NCBI GenBank assembly: GCA_024279865.1
Contig: JAJRRC010000081.1
Location: 1 to 64,000 of the forward strand
DNA length: 64,000 bases
Reading direction: 5' to 3'
Source: Planctomycetota bacterium
Lineage (GTDB): Bacteria > Planctomycetota > Phycisphaerae > Phycisphaerales > Phycisphaeraceae
Shown here in pieces: positions 11,780-55,888 of this stretch. The notes beneath the pieces were generated by a model. It saw only the letters and a list, made by a program, of their open reading frames with translations. It was not told the origin of the DNA and ran no database searches. The position numbers were made by a program, and so were the translations under genes. How positions within the stretch are numbered: the stretch's first letter is position 1; each line of letters opens with the position of its first letter.

Positions 11780-11829
11780 AAATCGGGGCGACATGATTTG
11801 AACATGCGACTTCCTGTTCCCAAAACAGG
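11780..11829 (-). repeat. attL: attL: 50-bp core, displaced 3' half of tRNA-Pro
   Basis: The sequence is identical to 55812-55861. It covers the anticodon arm, T arm and 3' acceptor strand of tRNA-Pro on the minus strand, and is followed leftward by the native terminator. Bases 11779 and 11830 are the first mismatches. Confidence 0.93.
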
Positions 11830-11887: not shown

Positions 11888-11935
11888 CTTGGGTGCGCCT
11901 AGGGTGCGCTTGGCAACAAGAATCAGGTGTTCTTG
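11888..11935 (+). repeat. Left integrase arm-type repeat (TGGGTGCGCCtAGGGTGCGC)
   Basis: This 48-base stretch matches 55687-55734 at most positions and contains two GGGTGCGC units. It lies 58 bases inside attL in the same orientation as the right copy, the layout expected for arm-binding sites of a tyrosine integrase around attP. The alternative is a relic of a related integrase 3' end. Confidence 0.55.
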
Positions 11936-11945
11936 CATAAAAATA

Positions 11946-12350
11946 GCCATCACTGGCAACCCCTTCTCGGAGAGGGAAACGGCTGAGGCCGATCCGAGAT
12001 GCCACCCCCTTTCAGGCACTGTATGAGAGGGCAGCCATCAACGCTGAATCTGCTCAACCCAGCAATGGGACGCAGAGGCTTGATGACTGATAGCTGCTCT
12101 TTCTCAGGTCGGTCTACCGACGCACTGCCTGAGGCGTCCAGTCCATAAGAGCGGCCCGGCAGGGGTCTGAGTAATCGGATGGCCATGCACGCCGGAACCA
12201 AACAGCATGGCCGGTCTACCTTCCCCGCAAGGGGTCGGTCTGTTCCGAGTATTAGCCAGTGAATACCAGTTAACAGTAGTCTTAGGTCATCCGTTTGATT
12301 CTAGATTAAAAGTATGGCTTATGGTTTACCGTATAAGTCAGTGAGGCTAA
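11946..12350 (+). ncRNA. Candidate large structured non-coding RNA
   Basis: There is no credible protein here, but many nested helices form on the plus strand: TCTCGGA/TCCGAGA (11965/11993) enclosing CGGC-TGAG-GCCG; CCCTTTCA/TGAGAGGG (12007/12024); CATCAA/TTGATG (12036/12080) enclosing TCTGC/GCAGA and CCCA-GCAA-TGGG; CTCAGG/CCTGAG (12103/12128) enclosing TCGGT/ACCGA; GGCCATGC/GCATGGCC (12181/12205); CCCC-GCAA-GGGG (12223); GTATT/AATAC (12249/12262); GGCTTAT/ATAAGTC (12316/12333). Several pairings contain a G-U that would be an A-C mismatch on the other strand, so the plus strand is favoured. Two GCAA loops and a possible GTAA loop (12071) are GNRA tetraloops. It lies outside the late operon, beyond its terminator. 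The phage large ornate RNAs (ROOL, GOLLD) are a possible class, but identity is not shown. Ends are approximate. Confidence 0.5.
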
Positions 12351-12423: not shown

Positions 12424-12458
12424 AAAAAAACACCCTGCTGACGTGAATCAACAGAGTG
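12424..12458 (-). terminator. Rho-independent terminator of the phage late operon
   Basis: On the minus strand CACTCTG and CAGGGTG pair with one G-U, extended by TGA/TCA, and a T7 run follows (12424-12430). It lies 26 bases after the stop of the last late gene. Confidence 0.8.
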
Positions 12459-12483
12459 CTTATGAAGAATGCATTGTGGCAAG

Positions 12484-13092
12484 CTAGCCGAGTGCTTTAA
12501 TCCGGTTCACGGCTGCCCGTCCATCAGGCCCAAGCAGTAGCTTGAGTGTCTTTCGAGTTGCTTCATTGCCAATATCAATTTTACCATCAACCCCCTTGGC
12601 CGCCTCGGTTGCAGTGGCGAATTTCTCCATCCCCGCAACCTTGCCCTTTTTATGGCCAAAGAATCCCGCGATTAAAGCTCCCGCCATCGTCGCAATCATG
12701 CCATACGGCGGAGGTAAGAATCCACCCACCGCACTAATCGTGCCACCTGCAGCCTCTCCCCAGTTGGTCGCGGTTTGAGTTCGGCTCTCAATCTCCACCA
12801 TCACCTGGTTGGCCTTGCTTAAATACACTTGGCCGTCGGCTGCAAACTTGGCGAGCTTCTCTGATGCATTAACCGCCTTTTCTTTGAGCCCCCCCTCCGG
12901 CAACGTTTGGATCAACCGATCCAGTTCAGCCTTGCGGTCCAGAGCATCAGCAACCCCACGTTCAACTTGCTGGCTTGTCTGGCGTATTTGCTGTAGCTGA
13001 GTCTTGGCCTGATCCACATTTTGGGGAAGCCACCCGCAGCCAGAGATAAACAACGCGAGAACCGCGAACAGGGTTAGAGTGATTCGTTTCAT
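12484..13092 (-). CDS. Phage lipoprotein, last gene of the late operon
   Basis: The start at 13092 (MKRITLTLFAVLALFISGCG) has AAGGA upstream and gives a 202-aa protein with a lipoprotein signal peptide and lipobox LFISGC. Next comes a Gln-rich coiled coil (about residues 25-110), then a glycine-rich hydrophobic segment (GMIATMAGALIAGFFG) followed by HKKGK. Its place at the end of the tail genes suggests a role in lysis (outer-membrane spanin-like) or surface modification, but no family is recognised. A longer ORF begins at 13137 but lacks a ribosome site and would hide the signal peptide. Confidence 0.7.
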   Translation of the reverse strand: MKRITLTLFAVLALFISGCGWLPQNVDQAKTQLQQIRQTSQQVERGVADALDRKAELDRLIQTLPEGGLKEKAVNASEKLAKFAADGQVYLSKANQVMVEIESRTQTATNWGEAAGGTISAVGGFLPPPYGMIATMAGALIAGFFGHKKGKVAGMEKFATATEAAKGVDGKIDIGNEATRKTLKLLLGPDGRAAVNRIKALG

Positions 13093-13106
13093 TGAAAATT
13101 CCTTTG

Positions 13107-13715
13107 TTAAGTTGCGGTACCATCTGGCAGAATCCATCCGCTGCCAGTATCGATATTGAGATTGCCGTCGTCAGAGTTAAAAATCATCCGGCCAGCCGTG
13201 GTGGCCACCGGTCGCGTTGCGTCGATATAGACAGGTAATAGGGTGTCAGACAAACCCTCGCCCCGGCGATCGAGGATCAAAGTAATCACCCCAGCAACCA
13301 TGGTGACCTCGGCAAGTTTTACATGGGGCACTGATGGCCATCCCCCGGAAGCAATGCCGGTGCCGATGGTTGCCACCCCTGCCACGCTGTAGAGCCAGAC
13401 GTAGGTTGTGTCGTTGTCTGTGAGGCCATCCAACCCCACGTTGGCATCGGGATCTTCGCCGGCGTAGACCAGCACAGTGCTACCAAAAGCAAAGCGGCCC
13501 GCTCGAACGCCAAGGGCATCGGCATTGTCTTTGATTGGATACACCCGAAAATCGTTCCCCCGCACCGCCATGGCACGCAGGTGGCTGTCCGCACGGTTTC
13601 GAGCAGCAAGCCATGGATCGTCGCTATCACCGGGATAGGGAAGCCCTGTGCTAGCATCGGTTGTGCCAGCAAGCGCGTCAGCGGTGGTGTCATCAAGATG
13701 TAATTCTTCAGCCAA
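13107..13715 (-). CDS. Phage distal tail or fibre-associated protein
   Basis: A 202-aa protein with LPYPGDSDDPWLAARN near the N-terminus, a beta-rich middle (TTYVWLYSVAGVATIGTG) and an end (GRMIFNSDDGNLNIDTGSGW) like the tip domains of tail fibres. The TTG at 13715 overlaps the TGA of the upstream gene and has GGAGC before it. It sits among tail genes. No enzyme motif is seen, and the function is inferred from position only. Confidence 0.65.
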   Translation of the reverse strand: MAEELHLDDTTADALAGTTDASTGLPYPGDSDDPWLAARNRADSHLRAMAVRGNDFRVYPIKDNADALGVRAGRFAFGSTVLVYAGEDPDANVGLDGLTDNDTTYVWLYSVAGVATIGTGIASGGWPSVPHVKLAEVTMVAGVITLILDRRGEGLSDTLLPVYIDATRPVATTAGRMIFNSDDGNLNIDTGSGWILPDGTAT

Positions 13716-26766: not shown

Positions 26767-26995
26767 GCAGCACCTCACTTCCGGGGGCTGTGGTTGGACG
26801 AAACGCGGGGTCTTGCACACGGGCACGGTGCCAGTCGTGGAGAAGGTCCGCCAGTGCTTCGGGCTCAGTTTCACCAATGCCACACACAGACGGCCCCCCG
26901 GAGTTGCCGAAGCTTCCGGGGGCGGGGGTGGAGACAGCCTTCCAGCCCTCTTCGGTTGGCCTGATTTCAATATAAATAGGATCGTTTGGCATCAA
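26759..26995 (-). CDS. Small phage protein (78 aa)
   Basis: MMPNDPIYIEIRPTEEGWKA, with GIGETEPEALADLLHDWHRA. The order resembles the short HicB/UPF-like fold (a beta strand pair and ALxDLL helix), but this is weak. It overlaps the protease start by 8 bases, so the two are coupled. The GATG-CGGCGGTG motif lies about 30 bases upstream. Confidence 0.6.
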   Translation of the reverse strand: MMPNDPIYIEIRPTEEGWKAVSTPAPGSFGNSGGPSVCGIGETEPEALADLLHDWHRARVQDPAFRPTTAPGSEVLRV

Positions 26996-27024: not shown

Positions 27025-27076
27025 GATGCCCGGCGGTGTTGCGTTGGAGTTTCTCACTTGCAACGTTGCAAGTGAG
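27025..27076 (+). repeat. Dispersed repeat with the 24-bp palindrome (copy 2)
   Basis: GATGCCCGGCGGTGTTGCG at 27025 is followed by the perfect palindrome at 27053-27076. It occupies the only gap between 26995 and 27094. Confidence 0.85.
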
Positions 27077-27093
27077 AAATGGGGTAGAGGGTG

Positions 27094-42580: not shown

Positions 42581-42817
42581 ATGGCAAATCAATTCATGAC
42601 AACCGGCGAAATTGCAGACGAACTTGGCGTGACCCGCGACCGCGTGGAGTACATCGTCAGATCACGCAAGATCGGACCTGTGAGCCGAGCAGGGAACTAC
42701 CGACTGTTCAATGCGGAACAGGTCGAACAGATCCGCCAAGTCAACGCAAACCCAGGTTCCCCCGGCACCCCAGCAGCGCCTACCCACGCTGCCGGAACCG
42801 GGGGAACCACCAACTAG
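42581..42817 (+). CDS. MerR/excisionase-type HTH protein
   Basis: The ATG at 42581 follows a perfect AAGGAG. 78 aa: MTTGEIADELGVTRDRVEYIVRSRKIG is a winged-helix HTH (helix_turn_helix_17 type) with a Gly/Pro/Thr-rich tail. Such small proteins act as excisionases or early regulators. Its place beside the repressor and operator repeats supports a switch role; the exact one is unknown. Confidence 0.7.
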   Translation: MANQFMTTGEIADELGVTRDRVEYIVRSRKIGPVSRAGNYRLFNAEQVEQIRQVNANPGSPGTPAAPTHAAGTGGTTN

Positions 42818-42845
42818 CTAGTTCGGCAAATCAATCTATGACAAA

Positions 42846-43678: not shown

Positions 43679-43761
43679 CCAACAGTTCGACAAACCAAAC
43701 ACCCGGGACAAGCGTGTCTGGGCAGCCCGCACCCGACGTGGGTCGAACTGTTGGTCTTTTT
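43679..43761 (+). terminator. Early terminator 2, 13-bp perfect stem
   Basis: CCAACAGTTCGAC (43679-43691) pairs with GTCGAACTGTTGG (43742-43754) and is followed by TCTTTTT. The 50-base loop contains further pairing. Confidence 0.7.
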
Positions 43762-43773
43762 CAAAACAACATG

Positions 43774-43855
43774 GCCAGCAGTTCGGCAAGATTAACCCCC
43801 ATGATCGGCGGGCCTTTAAGGCTCGTTTCCAGCCGTCGGGCTGCTGGCTCTTTTC
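43774..43855 (+). terminator. Early terminator 3
   Basis: GCCAGCAG (43774-43781) pairs with CTGCTGGC (43841-43848), followed by TCTTTTCT. The long loop makes it less certain than the first two. Confidence 0.5.
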
Positions 43856-54241: not shown

Positions 54242-54611
54242 TAAGTACAGCGTTGCTCCCAAAGAACAGCGAACGTGGAACGGCAAAGCCTATGATTCCA
54301 AGGCCGAGATGGAATACGCCATGGTTCTTGACCTGCTTCTCAAAAGCGGTGAGATCATCGACGTGATCGAGCAGCCCATCGTGCATCTGGGGATCCGAGA
54401 AAATAGGTATCGCCCTGATTTTCTCATCATGCCCGCAGAAAGCACCCCTTACTACGTTGATGTCAAGGGTATGGAAACTACGGCCTTCAAAAAGAACAAG
54501 CGGCTGTGGAAAATCTATGGGCGGATGGATCTTCACCTCGTCAAACGAACCGGACAGGGAAAATTCAAGGTAACCGAAACCGTGCGTGGGAAGGTAATGC
54601 AGGAAATATGA
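54228..54611 (+). CDS. DUF1064 endonuclease (Holliday-junction-resolvase-like)
   Basis: 127 aa. KYSVAPKEQRTWNGKAYDSK, EMEYAMVLDLLLKSGEI, YRPDFLIM and YYVDVKGMETTAFKKNKRLW are the DUF1064 core, with a PD-(D/E)xK nuclease pattern (E, D, DVK). It probably resolves phage DNA junctions, like RusA. Overlaps the integrase start by 4 bases. Confidence 0.82.
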   Translation: MVRNNKYSVAPKEQRTWNGKAYDSKAEMEYAMVLDLLLKSGEIIDVIEQPIVHLGIRENRYRPDFLIMPAESTPYYVDVKGMETTAFKKNKRLWKIYGRMDLHLVKRTGQGKFKVTETVRGKVMQEI

Positions 54612-55765
54612 CCGAAGCTGCAAATACCTCTTGGCCCGAAGTGGTGCGGCACGCTAAATTATATAGCGTGAGCAAGCCCAAATTCCGCCCGGATCGAAAC
54701 AAGTGGTACGTCGTCTACCGGGACCCCATCACAAAAGCACGGCGACAAGCCACTTTTGACAATGAAAGTGATGCTTGGGCTTTCTACATGAGGCACGAAG
54801 ACATCCATGCTCAAATGCGACGAGGGTCTGTCACAGACCGCCAGGTCCTCGTTGGAGAAAAAGGACTGATGCCAATCGAGCAGGTGCTGGCGGAATACCA
54901 CGACGACATGCTCTCCAGATCATTGAGCCCAGCCCACATCAAAGAGGCTCATCGAGTCATCACGAAGTGTATTGAAAAGACGAAATGGAAAAACCCAAAA
55001 GCGTTCAATCGGCAAGGCGTCACTCGATACCTTCGCCCTTTTTCACCACGCACTGGCAATATCTACTTGCGAACGATCAAGGCGTTCTCACGCTGGATGC
55101 ATGCCAATGCGTACCTTGTCGAAGATCCGCTGCAATTCACAAAATTCAAGCGTGAAGGCGATGAAGACCGTCATGCCAGAGCATTGAGTTTTGAAGAGTT
55201 CGAACGCCTCATTGAATGCCCTCAAATTATGGGGTGGAGAAGATTGTGGTATTGGATTGCCGGCCGAGCGGGTTTTCGTCACACAGAAATTGCCCGGCTT
55301 CAATGGCATGATATTGATCTCGAAACAGGCTGGATTTCGATCCCCGCCTCTAAGTCAAAAAACGGGCAAGCAGCAACGGTGCCAATTCCTGACAACCTTT
55401 GCCAAGCTCTACTTGCCGCCCAGGGTGATCCTGTAGACCTGGTCTTTTCGAAAAAACCAAGAGCCCGTGTTTGGCTCAACGATCTCAAGCGAGCCGAGAT
55501 TCCATTTAAAACATCCGCGGGAGCGGCCTACCGACGTAGCTTGCGAAAAACATTTGGTACACATCTGGCGGCACAAGGTGTCCCGCTGGCCACAACGGTA
55601 AAGCTGATGCGGCACTCAGACCCGAAGCTCACAGCGAACCTTTATACCGACCCCGCGTTACTGGATATGAGGGGTGCAGTGAATTCCTTGGGTGCGCCTG
55701 GGGTGCGCGCAGCAACAAAAAGCAGGTGTTCTGTTGGATTTTCGAAGGAGAAAGGCATTGCTTAA
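54608..55765 (+). CDS. int: Tyrosine recombinase (phage integrase)
   Basis: From the ATG at 54608 (overlap with the previous stop) 385 aa. The core-binding part (KWYVVYRDPITKARRQATFD) is followed by a catalytic domain with Arg in FRHTEIARLQW, box II SLRKTFGTHL with Arg, MRHSDPKLTANLYTDP with His and the Tyr nucleophile. The usual first His of HxxR is Arg here. It inserts the phage into tRNA-Pro; the right arm-type repeat overlaps the 3' end of the gene. The 3' end runs to 46 bases before attR. Confidence 0.92.
   Translation: MTEAANTSWPEVVRHAKLYSVSKPKFRPDRNKWYVVYRDPITKARRQATFDNESDAWAFYMRHEDIHAQMRRGSVTDRQVLVGEKGLMPIEQVLAEYHDDMLSRSLSPAHIKEAHRVITKCIEKTKWKNPKAFNRQGVTRYLRPFSPRTGNIYLRTIKAFSRWMHANAYLVEDPLQFTKFKREGDEDRHARALSFEEFERLIECPQIMGWRRLWYWIAGRAGFRHTEIARLQWHDIDLETGWISIPASKSKNGQAATVPIPDNLCQALLAAQGDPVDLVFSKKPRARVWLNDLKRAEIPFKTSAGAAYRRSLRKTFGTHLAAQGVPLATTVKLMRHSDPKLTANLYTDPALLDMRGAVNSLGAPGVRAATKSRCSVGFSKEKGIA
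55687..55734 (+). repeat. Right integrase arm-type repeat
   Basis: Similar to 11888-11935, two GGGTGCGC units in a row. It lies 77 bases left of attR, inside the integrase gene (coding SLGAPGVRAATKSRC). Confidence 0.55.
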
Positions 55766-55811
55766 CGAAACGCCTAAAGAGTTGTCATTGTGCGACTTAC
55801 GTCGTCTTTTT

Positions 55812-55861
55812 AAATCGGGGCGACATGATTTGAACATGCGACTTCCTGTTCCCAAAACAGG
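55812..55861 (-). repeat. attR: attR: 50-bp core within the intact tRNA-Pro
   Basis: Exact copy of attL. The phage end restores the tRNA 3' half here, so the tRNA remains whole. Confidence 0.93.
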
Positions 55862-55888
55862 TGCTCTACCAAGCTGAGCTACGCCCCG
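55815..55888 (-). tRNA. tRNA-Pro (anticodon TGG)
   Basis: The minus strand folds as a standard cloverleaf: acceptor CGGGGCG/CGCCCCG, anticodon loop TTTGGGA (anticodon TGG), T loop TTCAAAT. CCA is not encoded. This is the attachment site of the prophage. Confidence 0.93.

Follow-up and report, generated by a model that had tools for sequence, protein, structure and literature searches.

In phage lambda, int and att are followed by sib. The sib element is structured and is carried on the int-sense strand. In the circular genome attP separates it from the end of int, and integration parts the two. Hallmarks of a sib-type retroregulator are int transcripts that read through attP into the element and cleavage by RNase III that lowers int expression. 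An account in PMC5300877, citing Schindler and Echols 1981, describes lambda int as retroregulated by this downstream element. Two further structured RNAs borne by prophages near tRNA genes are ROOL and GOLLD. ROOL combines many helices with a possible pseudoknot and is marked by homo-oligomeric nanocages. GOLLD has a universally conserved 3' region and is marked by induction in lytic growth. Many GOLLD members are longer than 800 nt (PMC12286853).

Here we analyse a candidate structured RNA from a prophage within a 64-kb window (the whole stretch of DNA studied, 64,000 nt). Like ROOL and GOLLD, the candidate is prophage-borne, structured, and close to a tRNA gene, and like ROOL it has many helices and a possible pseudoknot. 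Unlike either, it gave no match to a covariance model, and its robust fold occupies only ~141 nt, which further separates it from ROOL. It resembles lambda sib in strand, in structure, and in its position relative to int and attP, but is longer and branched.

Results

Genomic setting

The prophage spans approximately 11830-55861 and is inserted in tRNA-Pro (Table 1). The host 16S gene looks like that of a planctomycete, probably of the class Phycisphaerae. The late genes of the prophage are transcribed from the minus strand, and an intrinsic terminator closes them. The candidate sits inside the prophage, between this terminator and the arm sites on the attL side. The repeat region containing these sites recurs at 87% identity within the 3' end of int (55687-55732), and each copy carries two GGGTGCGC motifs. 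Both are probably arm-type sites of the integrase, the second overlapping the coding end of int. Based on the coordinates of int, the attachment cores, and the element, the plus strand of the excised circle would run from int through a weak hairpin, attP, and the arm sites to the structured element. The element therefore follows int on the int-sense strand with attP between them, which is the layout of a sib-type element.

Table 1. Features of the prophage ends and of the candidate RNA, in window coordinates.
Feature	Position	Strand	Details
attL core, 3' part of tRNA-Pro	11780-11829	-	own-genome search; 100% over 50 bp vs 55812-55861
Putative arm-type repeat region	11888-11933		two GGGTGCGC direct repeats and a short inverted repeat
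Weak promoter-like pair TTGGCA-17-TTGCAT	11910-11938	+	start would fall near 11945; below 9-of-12 threshold
Candidate structured RNA (first-pass annotation)	11946-12350	+
Outer 11-bp closing helix	11946-11957/12337-12347	+	forms in some contexts only
Context-independent branched arm, 141 nt, 50 bp	11998-12138	+	same pairs in 48/48 sequence contexts
Inner GCAA-capped hairpin of arm	12049-12076	+
GTCGG/CCGAC side hairpin of arm	12108-12121	+
Small hairpin with GTAA loop	12167-12178	+	in 0.83 of contexts
Hairpin GGCCATGC/GCATGGCC, 16-nt loop	12181-12212	+	in 0.75 of contexts
Hairpin CCCC-GCAA-GGGG	12223-12234	+	p 0.76 in 405-nt fold
Intrinsic terminator of late operon	12428-12461	-	15 pairs, then T run
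Integrase (int)	54506-55765	+	PHROG 1 integrase, E 1.3e-37
Weak terminator-like hairpin after int	55792-55805	+	5 pairs, 3 GC, CTTTTT tail
tRNA-Pro	55815-55888		overlaps second core copy 55812-55861

Coding potential and transcription signals

The first-pass annotation had described a region free of genes beyond the late terminator, and this description held. By a rough gene map, it is the second-largest gene-free stretch of the window. No credible gene was found in 11946-12350. Reading frames are short, those of at least 60 aa lack codon bias, and the codon-usage scores of the 80- and 83-aa ORFs were close to zero or negative. The frames tested in the region also gave no meaningful PHROG or Pfam family match, so a conserved protein, which the first-pass annotation had named as grounds against an RNA, did not emerge. 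We therefore rejected these small ORFs as a hidden gene.

A sequence scan revealed neither a strong sigma-70-like promoter nor a plus-strand terminator adjoining the element. The predicted start of the weak promoter-like pair would fall close to the beginning of the element as originally delimited.

Fold strength and strand preference

Over 11946-12350, coordinates originally picked by looking for helices, the plus strand folded at -160.5 kcal/mol (z -4.8), and none of 100 shuffled sequences folded as well. The minus strand reached z -2.4. A second set of shuffles (n = 40) gave z -3.8 for the plus strand and -2.6 for the minus. The two comparisons proposed by the first-pass annotation, with shuffled controls and between strands, thus both came out in favor of a plus-strand structure. 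When the 64 kb was scanned in 968 windows of 405 nt, the one at 11946 on the plus strand ranked second, with z -4.0 against a background averaging -0.35 (sd 1.1). In a scan with 121-nt windows, position 12012 on the plus strand was the fourth peak of the 64 kb, with a lower score in 0.04% of windows. Some of the better 121-nt peaks were plain hairpins or palindromes, and one comparable peak lay within a coding gene. The fold statistic of the candidate is strong but not unique. Its ensemble diversity (77.7 for the 405 nt) was not clearly lower than that of shuffles (94.8, sd 27.7).

Wobble pairs had earlier been taken as a sign of plus-strand sense. The direction agrees with the z values, but the wobbles are a weak sign by themselves, with G-U pairs making up 16 of 137 pairs in the best plus-strand fold and 11 of 134 in the best minus-strand fold.

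Other strong folds are scattered across the window. A long palindrome (TTTCTCACTTGCAACGTTGCAAGTGAGAAA) at 27053-27079, between head genes, probably explains why the 405-nt scan of the window gave its top score at 26866 on the plus strand. The early region has strong long hairpins at 43727-43847 (plus; z -5.6), within a 649-base gap of the rough gene map, and at 42722-42842 (minus; z -5.9).

Architecture of the element

Folding the element in different sequence contexts identified one solid part, the branched arm at 11998-12138 (z -4.76 plus vs -2.03 minus), with the best core at 12012-12132 (z -5.25 plus vs -3.52 minus). Outside the arm, pairing varied with the choice of ends, and the outer closing helix, like the 3' third, shifted with context. 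A 12-bp inverted repeat with a wobble at 12245-12256/12407-12418 (CCGAGTATTAGC/GCTAATACTTGG) competes with the outer closing helix. The data do not settle on one overall architecture for the 405 nt. The original description of a "large" RNA was correct as to a structured plus-strand sequence but overstated its extent, given that only ~141 nt form a context-independent domain.

All of the named helices that we checked were present (CATCAA/TTGATG, TCTGC/GCAGA, CCCA-GCAA-TGGG, and GGCCATGC/GCATGGCC), and the two GCAA loops and one GTAA loop are real and more common than expected by chance. GCAA loops on perfect 4-bp stems occur at 12062 and 12227 (2 observed vs 0.049 expected; P ~0.001). Adding the GTAA loop at 12171, with a G-U pair allowed, gives 3 GNRA loops against 0.25 expected (P 0.003).

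A pseudoknot had also been proposed. CGGAAC at 12193-12198, in the loop of the 12181-12212 hairpin, is exactly complementary to GTTCCG at 12242-12247, although complementarity of 6 bp over such a distance is not unusual (~0.1 by our estimate). The pseudoknot could form as one possible pairing, not fixed by the data.

Search for known families and relatives

Membership in ROOL or GOLLD, as suggested in the first-pass annotation, or in another Rfam family found no supporting match. Using cmscan with Rfam 15, no family matched the region at gathering scores, and ROOL and GOLLD gave no match either at gathering scores or at E <=10 with permissive filters. The hits up to E 10 were weak, and nearly all fell outside the element.

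BLASTN searches with the region as query returned nothing meaningful from phages, plasmids, or E. coli genomes. Against 51 genomes of the family and 400 of the order it returned two short matches (20 and 25 bases) without the surrounding fold. We also built a covariance model, R1, from 11998-12138, the reach of which is limited because it derives from one sequence. Over 400 order and 288 class genomes (partly overlapping sets), R1 matched only itself, and it found nothing in the second prophage of the same genome or in 80 IMG/VR viral contigs with related capsid genes. Pattern searches likewise yielded no relatives. A repeated-motif pattern of GGYCGGTCTACC occurred at 17 genome loci, none matching R1, and by eye these resembled coding sequence or tandem repeats. 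Five viral loci retrieved with the GCAA hairpin pattern were also rejected, as none matches R1.

The prophage itself seems to be without close relatives in the collections searched, so little can be read into the failure to find the RNA elsewhere. The viral contigs contained no relatives of the integrase, the neighboring gene, or a tail-end gene, and phage records gave no match to the integrase or the neighboring gene. The neighboring gene (12484-13137) has a 69% identical homologue in the second phage-like region of the same genome (contig C97), where it is followed by other genes and the candidate RNA region is absent. Separately, a capsid gene with 60% identity is present in another genome of the same family (contig C345, 4.5 kb), with a TGA stop falling inside the match.

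Discussion

The observation made in the first-pass annotation is confirmed, and its interpretation is partly supported, namely as to a plus-strand sequence with unusually strong structure, set in a large stretch free of genes where a tRNA-inserted prophage ends. The fold is unusual for its composition and stronger on the plus strand, in a stretch lacking a credible gene. Our leading interpretation, held tentatively, is that the prophage encodes here, on its plus strand, a structured non-coding RNA element, a candidate belonging to no described family. This reading is favored by the strand-biased fold and its rank in the window, the core with pairs identical in every context, the excess of GNRA loops, and the gene-free position past the late terminator without a meaningful protein family match. 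The stable part of such an RNA would be the branched arm followed by two or three small hairpins, with GNRA tetraloops predicted to cap the inner hairpin of the arm and two of the small hairpins. Plus-direction transcription may start from the weak promoter near 11910-11938, or int transcripts of the circular phage may run on across attP into the element. The element would then act as RNA, not as coding sequence, during establishment or lytic growth. Counting against this interpretation, no homologue and hence no covariation was found, nor was a strong promoter or an adjoining plus-strand terminator. Plain hairpins and a stretch of coding sequence reach similar z values, the choice of coordinates was guided by helices, and the full-length fold shifts with context.

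Two rivals are serious. The nearer is that a GC-rich non-coding remnant, in ordinary spacer at the prophage end, folds well on both strands by chance. We rank this second and consider it possible though rather unlikely. Both strands do fold better than shuffles, similar z values exist elsewhere in the 64-kb window, and conservation was not found in the searched collections. A multi-helix arm stable in every context tested is harder to explain this way, as are the GNRA loop excess and the plus-strand bias. Ranked third, and unlikely, is a structured 3' extension of the int mRNA like lambda sib. Read-through int transcripts in the circular phage would carry the element, altering transcript stability, and integration would sever it from int and move it to attL. 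The order of int, attP, and element in the excised form agrees with this, and the lambda precedent described in PMC5300877 lends it weight. However, a terminator-like hairpin stands between int and attP, and the element, which begins ~210 nt past the end of int, branches far more than a simple hairpin for RNase III would.

It is very improbable that the element resembles ROOL or GOLLD but has diverged beyond the reach of the Rfam models. The prophage end at a tRNA gene, the GNRA loops, and the possible pseudoknot would suit such an RNA, but even permissive searches failed to recover either family and the region is shorter than GOLLD. A bolder reading, which we consider doubtful, takes the element as the earliest known example of a new class of structured phage RNAs that is unrelated to ROOL or GOLLD, is encoded on the far side of attP from int, and has a branched core capped by GNRA loops. 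A new class is not established, because no second member was found in the collections searched.

As a single sequence, the element is a lead, not a result. If it proves to be a working RNA, the short list of large structured RNAs from phages would gain an undescribed class, carried by a prophage that has no close relatives among the collections we searched and placed where a direct test of RNA control over integration would be feasible.
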